A stretch of DNA of 64,000 nt. It comes from Brevibacterium senegalense. Its GTDB lineage: Bacteria; Actinomycetota; Actinomycetes; Actinomycetales; Brevibacteriaceae. This document shows, piece by piece, positions 20,756 through 30,019 of the stretch; the first letter of the stretch is position 1; each line of letters opens with the position of its first letter. The notes beneath the pieces are model-generated. The model ran no database searches, was not told where the DNA came from, and saw nothing but the letters and a program-made list of their open reading frames with translations. A program made the position numbers and the translations under genes. The DNA is taken from positions 100,327-164,326 of the forward strand of contig NZ_HE978603.1 in NCBI RefSeq assembly GCF_000285835.1. The letters are read 5' to 3'.

Positions 20756-23700
20756 CTACCGCGCAGCGGCCGACTGCGCGGCGGGAGCCGCAGTGGCCTC
20801 GGGCTCGTGCTCCAGCCGCTGGGAGATGACGCGCGAGATCCCGTCGCCATGCATCGTGACCCCGTAGAGCGCGTCCGCGATCTCCATCGTGCGCTTCTGG
20901 TGGGTGATGACGATGAGCTGGCTGGACTCCTGCAGCTCCCGGAAGATCGTGAGGAGGCGGGACAGGTTCGCGTCGTCCAGGGCGGCCTCGACCTCGTCCA
21001 TGACGTAGAACGGGCTGGGCCGGGCCTTGAAGATCGCGACGAGCATCGCGACGGCGACCAGCGATCGCTCGCCGCCGGACAGGAGGGAGAGCCGCTTGAC
21101 GCGCTTGCCGGCCGGCCGCGCGCTCACCTCAACCCCGGTCGTGAGCATGTCGTCCGGGTCCGTGAGGTCCAGCGAGCCCTCACCGCCGGGGAACACGCGG
21201 GAGAAGATGTCCGCGAACTCCCGCTGCGTGTCGCGGAACGCGTCTTCGAACACCTGCTGGACGTGCGCGTCGACGTCCTTGACGAGGCCCATGAGCTCCG
21301 ACCGCGTCTGCTCGACGTCCGTGATCTGGCGCTCCAGGTAGTCGTGCCTCTCCTGCAGGGCCGCGAACTCCTCGAGGGCCAACGGGTTCACCTGTCCGAT
21401 CGAGGACAGTTCCTTCTTCGCCTTCGTGAGCGCCCGCTCGACGTCCGCCCGGACGTACGGGGTCGTCTCGACCTGAGGCTCTTCCTGCGCGTCGTACGTC
21501 TCCCGGTCCTGTCCGTCCTCCGGTCCCGAACTCTGATCAGCCCCCCGCTGCGCGGTCGGGACAGCTCCGCGCTTCGACTGCGGCGGGTCGAGGACGGGCA
21601 CGGGCAGGTGCGGGCCGAACTGCTCGACGAGGTTCTCCGCGCTCAGGCCCGCCTCTTCGACTGCGCGCCGCTCCAGTTCCTCCAGCTGCACGAGGTGGCG
21701 CTCGCGCTCCAGCCGGGCCGCGTGCTCCTTGTCCGCCGCCTGCGTCAAGCGGGTCGAGGCGTCCGCCCGCGCGGTGCGCAGCCGGGAGACCTCGCCCTCG
21801 AGGCGTGCCCGCTCGCCGGAGCGCAGGGCCAGGGCCTCCTCCGCCTCCCGCTGCCAGGCACCGGCGCGCTCGGCCACACCGGCGGCGATGCGGGCGATGT
21901 GCTCCGCACCTTCCGCCTGCCGTCTGCGCGTCTGCGCCACGCGCGCGGCCTGTGCCCGGGCGGCCTCCTCCTGGTCGGCCTGCCGCCGGAGTGCGCGGAC
22001 GCGGTCGGCTAGGAAGCCCACCTGGTCCTCGGCGGACTTGAGGCCCACGCGGGCGTCGACGGTCCGTTCACTCAGGGCCGATCGCGCGTCCGCCAGCCGG
22101 TCCCGCTCCTGGGTGTCCGGCTCCTCGCTGCGGTCCTCGGTGCTGTCGGCCTCCGCGAGTGCGCGACGTGCGCCCTCGAGTTCTGCTGCGGCCCGGTCCC
22201 GACGCTGGCGGGCCTGCGTGATCGAGTCCGCCGTCGCCGAGGCCCGGGACCGCAGCCGTTCGAGCTCACCGGCCGTGCGGGCCAGTTCCTCGCCGGCGGC
22301 CACGATGGACGCGTCGGAGTCGTGGAGGGCGGCGAGCGCGTGAGACTCCGCCTGCCGGGCCGGCGCCAGGCGCGCGTCGACATCCGCGATCTGCTCGTCG
22401 AGCCGGGCCAGCCGTGGTTCCAGTTCTGCCAGTTCCGCGAGTGTCTCGTCGAGGGCCGCGCGGGCGGCGATCTGCCCGGCCTCCGGGGTGCCCGCCCGTG
22501 CGGTGCGGCCGTGTGCCAGGACGGTCCCGTCGAGGGTGATGACCGTGTCCCCCGCGTGCGTGGCCAGGTGGGCGAGCGCGGCGTCGCGGTCGCCTGCGAT
22601 GTGGACGCCCGTGAGTGCCCGGGCCAGCGCGGCGGCCAGGTCGGGGGCCTCGGCGGTGACGACGGCCGCGGCGGGGGTCGTCTCCCCCGGTCCCGGTGCC
22701 GTGGTCGGGGTGGGTGCCGTGGGTGCGGGCCGGGACGCGTCCGGGGCCTCCGGGTGGACGACGTCGAGGAGGCCGTCGTCGCCCACGTGGTCGAGTGCGG
22801 CCAGGGCCGCGTCCCGGTCCGTCGCGAGGATCGCACCGGAGAGGGTGCCCAGAGCGGCGGTGGCGGCCACCTCGCAGCCGGGGACGATCATGAGCTCCTG
22901 CGCGACGGCGCCGCGCAGGCCGGGCAGCCCTGCCTCCAGCAGGTCCTCCAGACCGGCCGTCAGGCGGCTGCTGGCGCGCTGCCCCTCCGCCTGCGCCTCG
23001 AGCCGGGAGCAGGCGGTGCGGGCGGTCGTGCGTTCCTCGATGAGCTGGGCGCGCTGGTCGGTCAGTTCCCGGACCGCGGCCTCGGCCTGTGCGTGGGCCT
23101 CGTCCAAGCGGGTCTCCCCCGCCTCGCACTGGGCAAGCGTCTGCTGCGCGGCCTCGACGGCCGTCTGGGCGCGGGCGATCGCCTGGTCGGAGCCCGCGTC
23201 CTCCGTCTCCAGGGAGGACAGGGCTGATTCCGCATGCTCCAGCGAGCGGGCGGCGACCGCGATGCCGGACTCCAGCTCCGCGCGCTTGCGCAGGCGGGCG
23301 GCGATGCGGGCGCGCTCGGCGGCCAGTTCCTGCTCGGCGGCGGTGAGGCGGGATTCGATGTCCGCCTTCTGGTCCGTGATCTCCTTAAGCGATGCGGACC
23401 GCTGCTGGGCGTCCTCCTGGGCCTCGGCGTGCTCGGCTTCGAAGCGCTGCGCTCGCTCGCGCAGGGCGTCCGGGGATTCGCCGGCGCTGCGCTGCTGCTG
23501 GGCTGCGGAGCGCAGCATCCCGACCCGGTCGCCGGCGCGCTGGGACAGCGCCGTGGCGCGCGCGTGCGCGGCGGCGATCTGCGCGCGGCGCTCGTGGGCG
23601 GCGTCCGTCTGGGCGTCGAAGGATGTGCGAGCGGCCTCGGCGGTCTCGATCTCCGCATCCAGCCGCCGCACCTCCTCCTCGAGGGCGCGGCGCTGCTGGG

Positions 23701-24451
23701 CGGGGTCGGTCTCCGGGGTCGTCGCGGCGATGCGGGCCTGCAGACGCACGACGTCGTCGGCCAGCAGGCGGGCGGAGGCATCGCGGACGACGGCCTGGAC
23801 GACCTGGGCGCGCTGCGCGGCGCGGGCCTGCCGCCCCAAGGGACCCAGCTGCCGGGCGAGCTCCGCGCGCAGGTCCGCGAGCCGGTCGAGGTTGGTCTGC
23901 AGACCCGTGAGCTTGCGGAGCGCCTTCTCCTTGCGCTTGCGGTGCTTGAGGACGCCGGCGGCCTCCTCGATGAAGCCGCGGCGCTCGAACGGGTCCGCGT
24001 GCAGGATCGCGTCGAGGCGCCCCTGGCCCACGATGACGTGCATCTCCTTGCCCAGTCCGGAGTCGCTCAGCAGCTCCTGGATGTCCAGCAGCCGGGCGGG
24101 CTCCCCGTTGACCCGGTATTCGCTGCCGCCGGAGCGGAAGAGGGTGCGGGAGATCGTCACCTCGGTGTAGTCGATGGGCAGGGCGCCGTCCGTGTTGTCG
24201 ATCGTCAGGGCGACCTCCGCGCGACCCAGCGCCTGCTTCTTGGCGGTGCCGGCGAAGATGACGTCCTCCATCTTGCCGCCGCGCAGGTTCTTCGCACCCT
24301 GCTCCCCCATGACCCACGCCAGGGCGTCGACGACGTTCGACTTGCCGGAACCGTTGGGACCCACGACGCACGTGATGCCGGGCTCGAACTCGAGCTTCGT
24401 GGCCGACGCGAAGGACTTGAATCCGCGCAGCGTGAGGGTCTTGAGATGCAT
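20756..24451 (-). CDS. smc: Chromosome segregation protein SMC
   Basis: ATPase that compacts and aligns chromosomes with ScpA and ScpB. The N-terminal head has KSFASATKLEFEPGITCVVG and Walker A GPNGSGKSN at residue 31, then VVGQGRLDAILHADPFERR. Two long coiled-coil arms flank a hinge near residues 510-660, which carries a Pro/Thr/Ala-rich insertion (APTAPTPTTAPGPG). The C-terminal head has the ABC signature LLSGGERSLVAVA and Walker B VMDEVEAALDD. The length is 1,231 residues. -10-like TAGACT lies 9 nt before the ATG. Normally mutM is next to smc; here 4.6 kb of accessory genes intervene. Confidence 0.97.
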   Translation of the reverse strand: MHLKTLTLRGFKSFASATKLEFEPGITCVVGPNGSGKSNVVDALAWVMGEQGAKNLRGGKMEDVIFAGTAKKQALGRAEVALTIDNTDGALPIDYTEVTISRTLFRSGGSEYRVNGEPARLLDIQELLSDSGLGKEMHVIVGQGRLDAILHADPFERRGFIEEAAGVLKHRKRKEKALRKLTGLQTNLDRLADLRAELARQLGPLGRQARAAQRAQVVQAVVRDASARLLADDVVRLQARIAATTPETDPAQQRRALEEEVRRLDAEIETAEAARTSFDAQTDAAHERRAQIAAAHARATALSQRAGDRVGMLRSAAQQQRSAGESPDALRERAQRFEAEHAEAQEDAQQRSASLKEITDQKADIESRLTAAEQELAAERARIAARLRKRAELESGIAVAARSLEHAESALSSLETEDAGSDQAIARAQTAVEAAQQTLAQCEAGETRLDEAHAQAEAAVRELTDQRAQLIEERTTARTACSRLEAQAEGQRASSRLTAGLEDLLEAGLPGLRGAVAQELMIVPGCEVAATAALGTLSGAILATDRDAALAALDHVGDDGLLDVVHPEAPDASRPAPTAPTPTTAPGPGETTPAAAVVTAEAPDLAAALARALTGVHIAGDRDAALAHLATHAGDTVITLDGTVLAHGRTARAGTPEAGQIAARAALDETLAELAELEPRLARLDEQIADVDARLAPARQAESHALAALHDSDASIVAAGEELARTAGELERLRSRASATADSITQARQRRDRAAAELEGARRALAEADSTEDRSEEPDTQERDRLADARSALSERTVDARVGLKSAEDQVGFLADRVRALRRQADQEEAARAQAARVAQTRRRQAEGAEHIARIAAGVAERAGAWQREAEEALALRSGERARLEGEVSRLRTARADASTRLTQAADKEHAARLERERHLVQLEELERRAVEEAGLSAENLVEQFGPHLPVPVLDPPQSKRGAVPTAQRGADQSSGPEDGQDRETYDAQEEPQVETTPYVRADVERALTKAKKELSSIGQVNPLALEEFAALQERHDYLERQITDVEQTRSELMGLVKDVDAHVQQVFEDAFRDTQREFADIFSRVFPGGEGSLDLTDPDDMLTTGVEVSARPAGKRVKRLSLLSGGERSLVAVAMLVAIFKARPSPFYVMDEVEAALDDANLSRLLTIFRELQESSQLIVITHQKRTMEIADALYGVTMHGDGISRVISQRLEHEPEATAAPAAQSAAAR

Positions 24452-24460
24452 GGTGGGTGA

Positions 24461-24466
24461 AGTCTA
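24461..24466 (-). promoter_or_regulatory. Candidate -10 for smc
   Basis: TAGACT on the minus strand, 9 nt before the smc ATG, implying a near-leaderless transcript. No SD sequence precedes the ATG. Confidence 0.4.
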
Positions 24467-24582
24467 TCCAGCCGCGGGTTCCCGGGGCTCCGTGCACGTG
24501 TGCGGAGCTCGGGTGCACGGGTGCGGGAGCAGAGGGGTGGTGGCCGTTGCGGGGAAGCGGATCTCGCGCGCACAGCCCGCAC

Positions 24583-24873
24583 TCACAGGTGCCGTGCCGG
24601 ATCCATCATCTGGTGCAGGATCCGAATCACGTCCACGCCGTCCGACCCCGCCATGTAGAACAGCAGGTGCCTGCCGACGCTGTACTGACGGTATCCGTCA
24701 CGGAGTTCGTCGCACGCCCGCCCACGTCGCGGATCATCAGCGATGCGTTCGATGGCCGCCCTGATGTCCATCACATAGATCTCAGCCTGACCGACGTCCC
24801 AGCGCTCCGCGGTGTAGTCCCAGATCGAGGAGAGATCCAGGCGCGCGGCCGGTGTCAGGCGATAGCGGGTCAC
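24583..24873 (-). CDS. parE: RelE/ParE-family toxin
   Basis: A 96-residue protein with the ParE pattern: RYRLTPAARLDLSSIWDYTAERW at the start, AIERIADDPRRGRACDEL in the middle and HLLFYMAGSDGVDVIRILHQ before the Met-rich end. ParE toxins poison DNA gyrase, while RelE relatives cut mRNA; the sequence fits ParE better. Its start overlaps the antitoxin stop by 4 nt (ATGA), the normal coupled order with antitoxin first. Confidence 0.9.
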   Translation of the reverse strand: MTRYRLTPAARLDLSSIWDYTAERWDVGQAEIYVMDIRAAIERIADDPRRGRACDELRDGYRQYSVGRHLLFYMAGSDGVDVIRILHQMMDPARHL

Positions 24874-25103
24874 GACTTCTTCGCGGCGATGAAAGCGTCG
24901 AAGTCGAAGGGCTCGGCAGCACCGCTCTCCTCACCCGCGACGAGGGCCGCTCGCAATGCGGCGACGCGTGTCTCCTGGTCCTCCAACAACCGGAGGCCGG
25001 CTCGGACGACCTCGCTCGCAGAGCGATAGCGCCCCGAAGATACTTCTCGTGACAAGAACTCCGCGAAGTGATCGTCCAAGCTGATTGATGTGTTCTGCGC
25101 CAT
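24870..25103 (-). CDS. parD: ParD-family antitoxin
   Basis: A 77-residue partner of ParE. The N-terminal ribbon-helix-helix (NTSISLDDHFAEFLSREVSSG) is followed by YRSASEVVRAGLRLLEDQE, the core ParD signature, and an acidic C-terminal toxin-binding tail. The ATG at 25103 has no SD; a TATTAT box 6 nt upstream suggests a leaderless transcript. An inverted repeat overlapping that box is a probable site for autorepression by the ParD-ParE complex. Confidence 0.9.
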   Translation of the reverse strand: MAQNTSISLDDHFAEFLSREVSSGRYRSASEVVRAGLRLLEDQETRVAALRAALVAGEESGAAEPFDFDAFIAAKKS

Positions 25104-25109
25104 GACCCG

Positions 25110-25128
25110 ATAATACCAATAATTGGTA
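25110..25128 (-). promoter_or_regulatory. parDE promoter/operator
   Basis: Perfect inverted repeat TACCAAT-A-ATTGGTA at 25114-25128 abuts and overlaps the -10 candidate TATTAT (25115-25110), 6 nt before the parD ATG. This AT-rich patch stands out from the GC-rich surroundings. Confidence 0.6.
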
Positions 25129-25150
25129 CAGGCGCGGTAGCAGGCTTCCG

Positions 25151-26806
25151 TCAATCGTTCAGCTGGATCACTCCGCCGTCGTCGACGGTGAAGGCGCCCG
25201 CCTCCAACCGCCGAGCCAGGTCCGAGAGCCACACGCGGTACGACGAGTACGCTGGCGGCGGAGTGGGCCCGTCGACGGGCAGGTGGATGATCTGGCCCGT
25301 CTCGCCCGCCGGCAGCGGAGCGAGGTCGATCGCGTGGCCCTCGCCCTCTGCGGAAGTGAACTGCAGCCAGCCGCGGCAGTTCACGATCGCCCGGACCCTG
25401 TCCGGTTCCATCCAGTCGATCGTCTCGTCCACGTCATCGCCCACGGCATCGGCCACGGCATCGGCCAGCAGATCCGACTGCTCGATCATCGCCCGCGCGC
25501 TCAGAAGGGTGTGGTGGTCGACGAGGTCCAGCAGCTGCGTCGGGTTGTCCTGACCATCATGGCGCAGGAGGCTCGCGACCAGGTCCTCCGGCAGTGGGTG
25601 CCCCACGGTGCGGGTCAGCTCATCGAGGTCATCCTGAGAGGCCGGGCCGCGCAGCGTCGCGAAGGCCGCAGGGCTCCGCTCCTCCAGCACGCGTTCGATG
25701 ATCGTCCACGATTCATCGATGGTGAGGGGCTCAGCCACGGCGGACAGCCACGCGGCGAACCTCTCGTCGTCCGTGACGGACCAGGACTCGGGCACCTCGA
25801 CGTCGAACTCCTCCTCGACCCAGGCGCGAAATGGTGCATGCGCGGCCGCCGTGTCCTCATCGTCCTCATCGACAGAGACGGGCTCGTCCCAGACCCACGG
25901 GGTCAGTTCGTCGTATCCGATCGCGATGAGGCGCAGGAAGTCGACGGGGTCATCCGCCAGGCGCTGCGGCGCGCCGCCCTCCGAGCTGAGCAGGACGGAG
26001 CGGGAGTCACCGGAAGGCGCGAACCAGAGTGCTGCGAAGCCGCCGGATCCGTCGGTCTCCGCGAGCGGGAGGAGTCTCCACGCATCCGGGGCGGCCGGGT
26101 CGAGCCAGCCGTCCGTCGACCGCGTCCCGGAGAACACCGCGCCCAGTCGGAACTCTCCCTCATACGGGGTGACGAACGGATCGTCGTCAGCATCGGTGCC
26201 GCCCCAGCGCTGGGCCTCCATGACCGACAGGGCCCGCCGCAGAGGCGCGGGCAGCTCGGTGCCCGGCGCCAGCCTCTCGACGAGACGCTCCTCGACGGAG
26301 GAGACACCCGGCATCGAGTAATCGTGGTCCTCCACCACGTGAGCGGAGGCGACCAGCAGGAGGACCGCATACTCGGACCCCATCTGGTCGCAGACGAGGA
26401 TCCACCGGTCGCCGGCAGGCCATGCCCGCACCGTCACGAGGCCCAGGGAGTCCATGAGGACCTGAAGCATCGTGCACGCGTGCGCGTCGTCGGAACCGGG
26501 CAGCATCGTGCTCTCGCCCCATTCCGCGGTGAGGGCGGCCACGGCCCCCTCCACCACCGGTGCGGAGTGCTCGCGCACCACGGCCTCGCGCGTGCCGTCG
26601 TCGTCTTCGAGGCTGGTGCTGCGGCTGAGCTCCACGATGCGGAGGTCAATGGTGTCCGAGGACATGACCTCGACTCCGTCGATGATCTCTTCGGCATCGC
26701 TGTCCGCACCCGTCTGCCAGGGCAGCGCGAGCATCTCCCGGACCACACCGATGAGGCCAGCAGGCGGCGCGCTGACGAAGGTCGTGAACAGGTCCTGGTC
26801 GGACAT
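25151..26806 (-). CDS. SUKH (SMI1/KNR4)-domain immunity-type protein
   Basis: A 551-residue protein. The C-terminal ~160 residues read as a SUKH domain: LRGPASQDDLDELTRTVGHPLPEDLVASLL, RHDGQ, then WLQF, DLAPLPAGETGQIIHLP and a final WLSDLARRLEAG. SUKH proteins are common immunity proteins against polymorphic toxins. The central region (about 245-360), with GWLDPAAPDAWRLLPLAE, IAIGYDELTPW and FRAWVEEEFDVEVPESW, is shared with the protein at 28093-29085. The N-terminal part is unrecognised. The ATG at 26806 has AGGAG at 5 nt. No toxin gene is seen nearby. Confidence 0.8.
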   Translation of the reverse strand: MSDQDLFTTFVSAPPAGLIGVVREMLALPWQTGADSDAEEIIDGVEVMSSDTIDLRIVELSRSTSLEDDDGTREAVVREHSAPVVEGAVAALTAEWGESTMLPGSDDAHACTMLQVLMDSLGLVTVRAWPAGDRWILVCDQMGSEYAVLLLVASAHVVEDHDYSMPGVSSVEERLVERLAPGTELPAPLRRALSVMEAQRWGGTDADDDPFVTPYEGEFRLGAVFSGTRSTDGWLDPAAPDAWRLLPLAETDGSGGFAALWFAPSGDSRSVLLSSEGGAPQRLADDPVDFLRLIAIGYDELTPWVWDEPVSVDEDDEDTAAAHAPFRAWVEEEFDVEVPESWSVTDDERFAAWLSAVAEPLTIDESWTIIERVLEERSPAAFATLRGPASQDDLDELTRTVGHPLPEDLVASLLRHDGQDNPTQLLDLVDHHTLLSARAMIEQSDLLADAVADAVGDDVDETIDWMEPDRVRAIVNCRGWLQFTSAEGEGHAIDLAPLPAGETGQIIHLPVDGPTPPPAYSSYRVWLSDLARRLEAGAFTVDDGGVIQLND

Positions 26807-26954
26807 GGTGCTCCTGATCAGCGAGGGGCGAGTCTCTCGCGACAGTCTGCCAGTCCTCCTCACACCATCACGGATCACGTCACTGAAAGTTGCCGGTGAT
26901 CATCGCGCTCCACGCTCGCCCTGTGGGCATCAGCAGCCTGCGGGTGGTTCAGGA

Positions 26955-27494
26955 TCATCCCGCAGAGGGATAGATGACGCCGCGATCGGATCCGACGACC
27001 GCGCCGCGGCTCAGCTGCGCGGGATCGACATGGTCGGGCCCGAGGATGTGGTGCACCGTCTCCCCACGTGCCAGGAGGTGGTCGGCGATGATCCGTCGGT
27101 GGCACCGCCACCAGACCGCCTCAGAGCACAGAAACGCCGTGCGCTCGGCCCTCCCCCGCTCACGCAGGTGATCGAGCGTCCGCGAGAACTCCTGGGACTG
27201 CGCGTGGTCGGCGTAGTTGTGGAAGCTGCGGTTCTCCCACCAGGCGTTGACCTCGAACGGCACATCCCGGCTGACAGGACGCCGACCGGTCAGGTCTTTC
27301 GCGTGCTCGTAGCCGATCCCAGCCGCCTCGAGCGAGGCCGCGAGCGCATCCTGGTCGAACTGCGGGTACCGCGTCGATCCCGGCAGCTTCCGGACATCGA
27401 CAACCCGAACGATTCCGCTGGCATGCAGGAGCCCCAGGAACTCGTCGAGGGTCCGGGTCGAGTGCCCAATCGTGAAGAACGGCTCACTCATCAT
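26955..27494 (-). CDS. DUF488 family protein
   Basis: A 179-residue protein with clear DUF488 marks: FFTIGHSTRTLDEFLGLL, VVDVRKLPGS, FHNYADH, and FLCSEAVWWRCHRRIIADHL with a Cys and His pair near the C-terminal third. The family is widespread and has been linked with DNA-modification contexts, but has no settled reaction. Two ATGs stand side by side at 27494 and 27491; neither has a good SD. A tandem 15-bp near-repeat lies immediately upstream. Confidence 0.9.
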   Translation of the reverse strand: MMSEPFFTIGHSTRTLDEFLGLLHASGIVRVVDVRKLPGSTRYPQFDQDALAASLEAAGIGYEHAKDLTGRRPVSRDVPFEVNAWWENRSFHNYADHAQSQEFSRTLDHLRERGRAERTAFLCSEAVWWRCHRRIIADHLLARGETVHHILGPDHVDPAQLSRGAVVGSDRGVIYPSAG

Positions 27495-27524
27495 CGAGTA
27501 CCCGGACGTCGAGTATCCGGACGC
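27495..27524. repeat. Tandem 15-bp near-repeat upstream of DUF488
   Basis: CGAGTACCCGGACGT is followed directly by CGAGTATCCGGACGC, two mismatches over 15 bp, directly before the DUF488 start codons. It may be a regulatory site or chance. The rest of the 212-nt gap up to 27706 shows nothing else definite. Confidence 0.45.
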
Positions 27525-27706
27525 TGCCCGCGTGCTCCGAACCCTGCTGGCCGGAGGTCATGAGGAATCTCCGCCACCGTGCACCTCCATCTGCAAGCAG
27601 TGTAGGAGGTCAGAGATCCGGGATCGCCCGAGTATGCGAGTCGACGGGCCTATGCCTGCGACGAACAGACAGGGTGAACAGATCGCGCACCGTGAGAGGG
27701 AGAACC

Positions 27707-28063
27707 GTGGGGCTCTTCAAACGCAAGCAGAGGTCCGAACCGACTGATGCCGAGACTGACCCGCGATACGCTCCGCCCACGCAGATCGAGATGATGGAGC
27801 ACGCGCGCATTCCGGTCTTCCTCTCGAAGATGCACGCCGAGCATCCGCCCCGCTGGGTGACGGTCCACGCGGACCGCCTCGAATCGTTCGTCGGCCTCGA
27901 ATCCGACGAATACATGGACGATTCCAACCATCTGGCGATCTGGTCAGTCGATCACTTCATCAGCGACTTCCCCTTCGTGACCGACTTCCTGAATGCGGCC
28001 CGTCCGGGTCAGACAGCGCTCTTCGCCGACCAGTCGGGTGCCTTCACTCTCGAAGACGACTGA
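27707..28063 (+). CDS. Small DUF2185/Imm33-like protein
   Basis: A 118-residue protein on the opposite strand to its neighbours. GTG at 27707 has AGGGAG at 6 nt; the open frame runs further upstream without features. The second half, WVTVHADRLESFVGLESD, EYMDDSNHLAIWSVDHFI and VTDFLNAARPGQTALF, resembles DUF2185 (Imm33) proteins, which share a gap-rich pattern of DEYxxDxxN, a Trp/Tyr-Ser-Val stretch and a final FL-A--G-A-F. The match is from memory of the family and is moderate. Immunity function would fit its neighbours. Confidence 0.6.
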   Translation: MGLFKRKQRSEPTDAETDPRYAPPTQIEMMEHARIPVFLSKMHAEHPPRWVTVHADRLESFVGLESDEYMDDSNHLAIWSVDHFISDFPFVTDFLNAARPGQTALFADQSGAFTLEDD

Positions 28064-28092
28064 CGGGGCGCCCACCCCCCGGGCCAGGTCGA

Positions 28093-29085
28093 CTACTGCG
28101 CGTCGACCATCAGCGTGATCATGGTGAGACGATCGTCGAACTCGACGTGCACGTATCGCCCACCGACGACGTACCGCAGCCACGTCTCCCCGGCGAGTTC
28201 CGGCTCACCCAGGAATGACAGCACCTGCTCGCGGGTGGGGTCTTCGACCAGACCGGAGATGAGCTCTGCCGACCGCGGGTAGTCACTCATCGTGATCCAG
28301 ATGGTCTCGACTCCCTTGCGAGTGCTATCGACTTCCACACCCACCTTCGCCAGAGCCTTCGTCGACGATCGCAGAGTATCGCCCGTGCGGATGTCGAGGA
28401 GGGACGCGACGACGTGCGCAGCACTGTGATCGTCCGGTTCACCCAACAGTGCCATGAAGCGCTTGAGCTCGCCGTCGATCTGAGCCCCCGAGTAGTCCGG
28501 CGGTGGCAGCGTCGCCTCACGCGGCTCCTCACCCAGCTGCGCTGCCATCCACGAGTCGAAGTCGTCCGGATGGCCGCTCAGTGCTGGCCAGGCGCCAGGC
28601 ACCGTGACCCCGAACGTCCCCTCGAGCCATGCGCGGAACCGGCCCGTGTCGACAGGCTCTTCTGGCTCAGCCCCCAGCGTGAGGTCGGAGAGCTCGTCGT
28701 AACCGATCGCGAGGAGCGTGAGCAGCTCCTGCGCATCCTGCGCCAGGATTCCACGCGCTCCGTCAGAACCGAGGAGCACCACACGCACGGCGTCCCCGTC
28801 TCGCCACAGCGCGATGATCGATCCGGAGCCGTCAGCGTCTGCGATCGGAAGCAGGTCCGCGTGGCCGGGCTCATCGGGCTCCAGCCATCCGTCCAATGTC
28901 CCGTCGGCGATGAACACGATGGATGATTCGTCTCCCTCGGAGACCGTCAGGCAGTATCCAGCAGGTGCGTCGACCGCGTAGCCGTGGTCCTCCAACCAGA
29001 CCCATGCTCGCTCGAGGTCGTCAGGCAGCACGGGCCAATCGGAACGGTGTGCTGTGATGAGCTCAGCAAGTCTCGACATGGTCAT
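28093..29085 (-). CDS. Paralogue of the SUKH protein's central region
   Basis: A 330-residue protein. Residues about 60-200 align with the central region of the protein at 25151-26806 (GWLEPDEPGHADLLPIAD, LLAIGYDELSDL, FRAWLEGTFGVTVPGAW, then DDFDSWMAAQLGEEP). The C-terminal part (SFLGEPELAGETWLRYVVGGRYVHVEFDDRLTMITLM, read as separate short blocks) recalls domains often found beside SMI1/KNR4 immunity genes. No SD precedes the ATGs at 29085 and 29079; an AT-rich ATAAAAT lies just upstream. Function is inferred as immunity-like only from context. Confidence 0.7.
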   Translation of the reverse strand: MTMSRLAELITAHRSDWPVLPDDLERAWVWLEDHGYAVDAPAGYCLTVSEGDESSIVFIADGTLDGWLEPDEPGHADLLPIADADGSGSIIALWRDGDAVRVVLLGSDGARGILAQDAQELLTLLAIGYDELSDLTLGAEPEEPVDTGRFRAWLEGTFGVTVPGAWPALSGHPDDFDSWMAAQLGEEPREATLPPPDYSGAQIDGELKRFMALLGEPDDHSAAHVVASLLDIRTGDTLRSSTKALAKVGVEVDSTRKGVETIWITMSDYPRSAELISGLVEDPTREQVLSFLGEPELAGETWLRYVVGGRYVHVEFDDRLTMITLMVDAQ

Positions 29086-29140
29086 GATTTTATGTGACTT
29101 GAGTCCACGTGTCACCGAAGGCTTCTGGGCTCACGTCCGA

Positions 29141-30019
29141 TCACCGCTTCCGCTGGCAGGTGGGGCACACGTGGGTGCCGCGCCCTCCCACGACAAGACG
29201 CCGAATGGGTGTGCCGCAGACCCCGCACGGCTGGCCGGTCCGCCCGTATACGGTGAGCGACCGGTCGAAGTAGCCGGAATCGCCATTCACGTGCACATAG
29301 AGCGAGTCGAAGCTGGTCCCGCCCTGGGCCAGGGCGGCCTCCATGACCGCATGCGCCGCCTCGAGCACCGCCCGCAGACGGGAGACCCGCGTGCGCGCGG
29401 GTACCGCGAGCGGATGCACCCGGGCGCGGAAGAGCGCTTCGTCCGCATAGATGTTGCCGATCCCGCTCACGATCGTCTGATCCATGAGCACCGACTTGAG
29501 CGCAGACGTCGATCGCTGGATCCGCCGGGCCGTGGTCTCGAGGTCCCAGTGCGGGTCCAGCGGATCGCGTGCGATGTGCGCGCTGGCGCGCGGCACCGCA
29601 TCCGGGCCGTCCGCGATGAGGTCATCGACCCCGATGTGACCGAAGATCCGCTGGTCGATGAAGCGCAGCTGGACCGGGCGCGGCCCGCGCTGCAGGTCGA
29701 GGATCGCCCGCGTGTGGCGGTGCACCGGCTCGCCCGCGGTATGAATGCGCAACTGTCCGCTCATGCCCAGGTGGAGGGTGAGGGCTGCGGGACTACCGGC
29801 GAACGGGACCCATAGGAACTTGCCCCGTCGCTGCGGGGTCGCGAGCACCCGACCGGCCACGGCCTCGGCGAAGGTGTCCGCGGCCTCCGGCGGCAGGCGG
29901 CGCTGGGAGGTGGTGCCGAGGATCCGCGGATCCAGCACCCGCACCCCGGTGATCGCAGCGGATTCGACCCAGCCGAGAAGGCCCCTGCGGACGGACTCGA
30001 CCTCCGGCAGTTCAGGCAC
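29141..30019 (-). CDS. mutM: Formamidopyrimidine-DNA glycosylase
   Basis: Excises oxidised purines such as 8-oxoguanine and nicks at the abasic site. The catalytic N-terminus PELPEVESVRRGL gives the active Pro2 and Glu3; Lys in RRGKFLWV near residue 58 is also present. The H2TH region has VLMDQTIVSGIGNIYADEALFR, and the C-terminal zinc finger has CGVCGTPI and CPTCQRKR. The start is GTG at 30019, with GAGG in the rnc end. Length is 292 residues. Confidence 0.96.
   Translation of the reverse strand: MPELPEVESVRRGLLGWVESAAITGVRVLDPRILGTTSQRRLPPEAADTFAEAVAGRVLATPQRRGKFLWVPFAGSPAALTLHLGMSGQLRIHTAGEPVHRHTRAILDLQRGPRPVQLRFIDQRIFGHIGVDDLIADGPDAVPRASAHIARDPLDPHWDLETTARRIQRSTSALKSVLMDQTIVSGIGNIYADEALFRARVHPLAVPARTRVSRLRAVLEAAHAVMEAALAQGGTSFDSLYVHVNGDSGYFDRSLTVYGRTGQPCGVCGTPIRRLVVGGRGTHVCPTCQRKR

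Follow-up and report, generated by a model that had tools for sequence, protein, structure and literature searches.

Polyimmunity loci and polyimmunity proteins are the closest described counterparts of the locus analyzed here. Polyimmunity loci hold several immunity-type genes without an effector, in one orientation, with SUKH and Imm33 members among them and with contents that vary between close relatives; polyimmunity proteins join several immunity domains in one chain, and in some of them Imm33 is described as fused to SuFu and SUKH domains (Zhang et al. 2012, PMC3482391). Immunity genes beyond the partners of own toxins are likewise described for Bacteroidales (orphan immunity genes and acquired interbacterial defense) and for firmicute type VII secretion system arrays (PMC10470768, PMC12247911, PMC9484751), and in the Acidovorax citrulli pair TseN-TsiN, TsiN covers the active site of the DNase TseN (structure 9J9W; PMC12574953). 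We analyzed a window of 64,000 nucleotides of Brevibacterium senegalense (contig NZ_HE978603.1, positions 100,327 to 164,326), which contains, between smc and mutM, a block of six genes: parE, parD, a 551-amino-acid (aa) gene, a DUF488 gene, a 118-aa gene, and a 328-aa gene whose product is here called XY. Polyimmunity-type genes in a variable site are an already known kind of system. On balance, and with a little better than even confidence, we favor the reading that the smc-mutM interval is a hotspot holding a ParDE pair and an effector-less cluster of immunity-type genes and that the 551-aa and XY proteins are polyimmunity-type proteins shielding against nuclease-type toxins.

The locus resembles polyimmunity loci in several respects. 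First, three immunity-type genes stand together, and no effector gene was found among the called genes of the block and interval by Pfam scan; for two of the three, the assignment depends on fold or subthreshold matches. Second, content differs between relatives: this strain (G000 among the 57 genomes of the genus compared) and its sister G037 differ in order and cargo, and the SUKH-type pair (551-aa gene and XY gene) was absent from the called genes of the other 50 of 52 intervals. Third, and less securely, immunity domains may be joined in single chains, SUKH-1 being certain in the 551-aa protein and the domains named X and Y below being recognized by fold. In contrast to polyimmunity loci, there are only three immunity-type genes, with ParDE and DUF488 interspersed, and the N, X, and Y parts of the two larger proteins are not recognized by Pfam, X resembling SUKH by fold only. 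The Bacteroidales and firmicute systems differ in phylum and partly in secretion system.

Across the genus, the smc-mutM interval is a hotspot of variable cargo, a more general finding that is new relative to the original prediction. Both genes lay on one contig in 52 of the 57 genomes (in G013, G039, G042, G049, and G051 one match was missing or the contigs differed), and the interval between matched parts ranged from 30 bp to 36,572 bp, with a median of 3,787 bp and 6 of 52 values below 300 bp. The control distance from the N-terminal part of smc to the ftsY match was 3,451 to 3,903 bp in 55 of the 56 genomes having that smc part; G033, with the two matches on different contigs, was outside this count. 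The standard deviation was 5,690 bp for smc-mutM (52 genomes) versus 95 bp for smc-ftsY (55 genomes), and the hotspot call is made against this one control interval rather than from a genome-wide ranking of gaps. Among the nearest relatives in the marker tree, G000, G037, G034, and G054 have a filled interval, and those of G055, G015, and G001 contain almost nothing. The site may vary more widely, since the smc-mutM gap is 98 to 9,624 bp in 15 of 24 loci (kept from 80) of other actinobacterial genera, the other nine, in whose fetched DNA smc was not found, being outside this range. No title on an smc-mutM hotspot or on a hotspot in the genus was present among the literature matches listed. A defined site with natural alternatives from empty to 36 kb could reveal which shields and defenses the genus collects, and how.

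Interval genes were called by a codon-usage script trained on this window and then clustered. A BCCT transporter (HMM [hidden Markov model]-checked in one genome) recurs in many genomes belonging to one large part of the tree, so the content is partly inherited; beyond it, much of the cargo is scattered. Conflict-type genes were recognized in at least 8 of the 52 intervals: ParDE, SUKH, and Imm33-like genes in this strain (G000), HipA together with SUKH in G037, a YoeB-type toxin and a partner in G010 and G020, AbiD-type genes in G033, G035, and G045, and a set in G030. The G030 interval (L139) is a small defense island at the same site: besides a T5orf172 protein and an ApeA-type HEPN protein, it encodes a PbeA-like helicase, a HipA relative, and an MmeI-like type IIG restriction enzyme. 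Conflict genes of G000, G037, G020, G030 (without HipA), and G035 were HMM checked and the rest assigned by cluster similarity, HipA and AbiD relatives being extended by clustering. The HMM scans covered part of the cargo and supported BCCT, CorA, AbiD/Abi_2, YoeB, HipA, the type IIG enzyme, ApeA, T5orf172, PAP2, and HNH in one genome each; metal resistance was read by eye.

Two separate observations concern these intervals. The mutM-smc stretches of G025 (L131) and G022 (L133) are only 53% GC and their genes were badly called; a 78-aa frame is repeated in G022. In G045, an AbiD/Abi_2-type gene (L119:1036-2021) seems split over two frames, and G033 and G035 have single 328-aa frames.

The 551-aa protein comprises an N domain, a central X domain, and a C-terminal SUKH-1 domain, and the SUKH assignment of the original prediction held up in the HMM check. 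SMI1_KNR4 (SUKH-1, PF09346) matched residues 388 to 526 with an E value of 3.6e-12, and the whole-protein score was 47.4 bits versus a curated cutoff of 25.4, placing this C-terminal domain in the SUKH superfamily. SUKH-1 matches occur in 3 of the 57 genomes. The predicted model (mean predicted local distance difference test score [pLDDT], 64) is too weak for reading the N and SUKH-1 parts, and a fold search with the N domain gave low-Z matches only, including DUF4309, Mog1, CyanoP, and Eag/SciW chaperones. N is the most diverged part between G000 and G037 (57% identity, versus 79% for X and 84% for SUKH-1) and, by this comparison, is fast evolving.

XY has a confident predicted model (mean pLDDT, 91). 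Its residues 15 to 180 match the center of the 551-aa protein (40%, E value of 3.9e-17), as originally proposed, and no third copy of the X region was found in the genome at an E value of 0.001. In fold searches, the X domains matched Knr4 and, more weakly, FBXO3, and the Y domain has the same fold as a 9J9W chain. In contrast to TsiN, Y is fused to a SUKH-like domain, identity is 17%, XY has no credible sequence match to any PDB chain, and type VI secretion delivery, as in TseN-TsiN, has no known bearing on this host. XY itself has no Pfam family; among 35 homologues the best Pfam E value was 0.042, with no family in more than three of them, and none of Pfam, NCBIfam, and PADLOC has a model for the XY family. 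Of all block proteins, only ParD passed a cutoff in the NCBIfam scan. A precomputed PF19929 label for two homologues (P0024 and P0026) was dropped when the current library did not reproduce the match. XY relatives were found in 6 of the 57 genomes, two of these by weak partial matches only. The protein links an uncharacterized actinobacterial family to a solved toxin-immunity complex, which is testable, and the family could point to unknown toxins used between these bacteria.

An alternative XY start lies at 29085. The promoter-like site upstream is the only minus-strand site in 24400 to 29300 (2 sites on both strands versus 0.4 expected) and is separated by 7 bases from the ATG at 29079; from this spacing, the XY mRNA is probably leaderless.

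The 118-aa protein is called Imm33-like on the combined grounds of its homologues, fusions, and neighbors. Of 29 homologues, 21 match Imm33 weakly (best E value, 0.004), and no other family is matched by more than two. The gene is present in 9 of 396 genomes of the order. In other genera the domain forms the end of longer proteins (eight such relatives); all five tested match SUFU in their first part (E values of 2.9e-6 to 8.1e-4, one over the cutoff), and only two of the five show Imm33 (E values of 0.15 and 0.26). These relatives look like SUFU fusions by their domain matches, fusion to SuFu-type domains being a published Imm33 trait. In G287, the gene for a SUFU-Imm33-like protein and a lone SUKH gene are 1.9 kb apart, separated by a transposase gene; the product of the lone gene shares 65% identity with the SUKH part of the 551-aa protein.

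Several results qualify these assignments and the comparison with known systems. First, the original assignment of the 118-aa protein to Imm33 has to be downgraded: the match, at 17.4 bits versus a cutoff of 25.4, is subthreshold, and a profile comparison with two true Imm33 proteins, although aligned end to end, had a probability near zero and gives no support. Second, a sequence relation of X to SUKH did not emerge: neither XY nor its 35 homologues matched a SUKH family at an E value of 1 or better, the X profile compared with the SUKH-1 part of the 551-aa protein returned nothing, and when the profiles of X, Y, N, and SUKH parts were compared with one another, only X matched X. Third, the immunity-type genes are not in one orientation, the Imm33-like gene being on the plus strand and the other two on the minus strand. 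Fourth, the genes had been described as orphaned, and this stands for the block only; the genome-wide toxin search was for WXG100 alone and gave one gene over the cutoff, and the ParE beside the immunity-type genes is an intracellular toxin. Fifth, DUF488 as necessarily foreign DNA is ruled out by its wide spread in the genus (39 of 57 genomes, own included).

If our preferred reading is correct, the 551-aa protein would join a SUKH-like X domain to SUKH-1 and the fast-evolving N domain, and XY would join its SUKH-like X domain to a TsiN-like Y domain, both proteins remaining in the cytoplasm. A neighbor would deliver a nuclease-type toxin, and one domain, each being specific for a particular toxin domain, would bind the toxin domain and cover its active site, giving passive protection. 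By analogy with the described systems, immunity is most likely the function of these proteins and nuclease-type toxins their targets. We propose more tentatively, as an idea well short of an even chance, that the site is a conflict-gene hotspot of the genus and perhaps of many Actinobacteria and that XY is an undescribed two-headed SUKH-like/TsiN-like shield of Gram-positive cells against nuclease toxins, with a second head that is duplicated in some strains and missing from others.

Alternatively, the SUKH-type and DUF488 genes could belong to phage defense or to other intracellular systems accumulating at the hotspot and would then not be shields against neighbors' toxins. PADLOC candidate models match the SUKH part of the 551-aa protein (PDC-M40A, 9.6e-24) and the DUF488 protein (PDC-M45B, 6e-27), and the restriction enzyme, PbeA-like helicase, and ApeA of G030 and the AbiD of G035 occupy the same interval. 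However, both models are listed without description, PDC denoting untested candidates in PADLOC; XY has no PADLOC match; and swapping with SUFU, ankyrin, SUKH, and Imm33-like parts, together with the Y fold, suits immunity proteins better. We regard this explanation as unlikely.

The history of the SUKH-type pair bears on a further explanation, that the immunity-type genes are decaying leftovers of a local toxin system whose toxin was lost. The marker tree places G000 and G037 as sisters; the N-terminal parts of their smc products are identical, their mutM identity is 88%, and among the 52 intervals only theirs hold the pair. The lack of an effector in the block fits decay, as does the XY gene of G037 (L125), which is interrupted by a stop shortly after the usual start, so that only a shorter (300-aa) frame is open, and which may be broken; however, that stop may be an assembly error (the assembly has about 320 contigs). 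All six frames are open in this strain, the promoter-like site precedes XY, and the ratios of nonsynonymous to synonymous substitution rates (dN/dS) between the sisters are below 0.31. By NG86 they are about 0.30 and 0.27 for the two genes versus 0.13 for mutM, and by YN00 they are 0.22 and 0.13 (no value for mutM). Both genes are thus under constraint as estimated from this pair of genomes, by NG86 less strictly than mutM, and we consider decay improbable.

Vertically inherited housekeeping or regulatory SUKH-type proteins, present by chance, are very unlikely: SUKH folds occur in regulators too (yeast Knr4 is one), the composition of the 551-aa gene is near normal, and both sisters carry the pair, but SUKH-1 and XY-type genes are too patchy in the genus, and gene order read from mutM differs between the two carriers (XY ... 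551-aa in G000; 551-aa, XY in G037).

Composition and distribution suggest that the block was gained from several sources, probably by horizontal transfer, rather than as one piece. The block is the lowest-GC 4.5 kb of the window: it has 66.3% GC versus 71.3% in the rest, and none of 238 sliding windows is lower. Third-position GC lies 1.8 to 4.1 standard deviations below the mean of 56 other called genes in five of the six block genes, the 551-aa gene being nearly ordinary at −0.9 (in this measurement, the parD start was placed 51 bases too far upstream, and the 328-aa gene was counted from 29031). The same genes are far from universal at this site among relatives: this ParE, like SUKH-1, is present in 3 of 57 genomes, and in G034 and G055, the two other ParE carriers, the gene is on a different contig from mutM-smc. 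Piecemeal acquisition, as originally suggested, is consistent with the mixed strands (five genes minus, one plus), composition, and patchy spread, but DUF488 need not be foreign; this gene, found in no other smc-mutM interval among called genes, may have moved to the site from within the genus, given its spread there. A mobile element moving as a unit was considered and rejected, as no integrase is among the six genes, no edge-joining repeat was listed, and the carriers differ in gene order.

The ParE/ParD pair and the DUF488 protein are as first described, as are the existence and positions of all six genes (as open reading frames [ORFs]) and the standard order rnc-mutM-block-smc-ftsY, the flanking genes being named by reading them. 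With Imm33 downgraded, DUF488 reexplained, and site variability added, the earlier interpretation is mostly right and partly supported. The pair is a typical type II ParDE system, with adjacent partners both over the Pfam cutoffs, genes overlapping by 4 bp, and a palindrome before parD, and nothing notable differs from such systems. The palindrome is, from its position, a likely autoregulatory operator, and ParDE may stabilize the segment against loss.

Table 1. Features of the smc-mutM region (positions in the window)
Feature	Position	Strand	Details
smc, left border of variable interval	20756..24451	-	ORF, 1231 aa; N-terminal 200 aa found in 56/57 genomes of the genus
Variable smc-mutM interval	24452..29140		4689 bp in this strain
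ParE-type toxin, 96 aa	24583..24873	-	Pfam ParE_toxin PF05016, 9.2e-21
ParD-type antitoxin, 77 aa	24870..25103	-	Pfam ParD_antitoxin PF03693, 1.4e-35
Palindrome TACCAATAATTGGTA, just upstream of parD	25114..25128		15 nt, 7-bp perfect arms; read directly from sequence
551-aa protein	25151..26806	-	N ~1-168; X ~170-360 (SUKH-like fold); SUKH-1 388-526
DUF488 protein, 179 aa	26955..27494	-	Pfam PF04343, 8.1e-31
118-aa Imm33-like protein	27707..28063	+	Pfam Imm33 (= DUF2185) PF09951, 0.004
328-aa protein XY	28093..29079	-	X 1-190 (SUKH-like fold); Y 197-328 (fold like 9J9W chain); predicted model
Promoter-like site GTGACA-17-TAAAAT	29087..29115	-	10/12 consensus matches
mutM, right border of variable interval	29141..30019	-	ORF; found in 56/57 genomes

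Some further observations were made on relatives of these proteins. In G068, a 596-aa protein with a weak bacterial SH3 match (L176:2942-4732) is encoded beside a SUFU-Imm33-like gene and is, by its location, a possible toxin partner; a WXG-like small gene, seen by eye, lies about 3 kb beyond it. In G239, a 485-aa protein adjoining an X-domain gene (L186:3778-5235) seems by eye to hold several Y-like units and has a weak BamE match (0.0042). Two tandem small genes in G144 (L195:5575-6532) are a Y relative found by BLAST and one that is Y-like by eye, with an integrase-like fragment, also read by eye, nearby. L187:5772-7730 and L188:5498-7621, each from a genome of another family, encode X domains fused behind a PRiA4_ORF3 domain.
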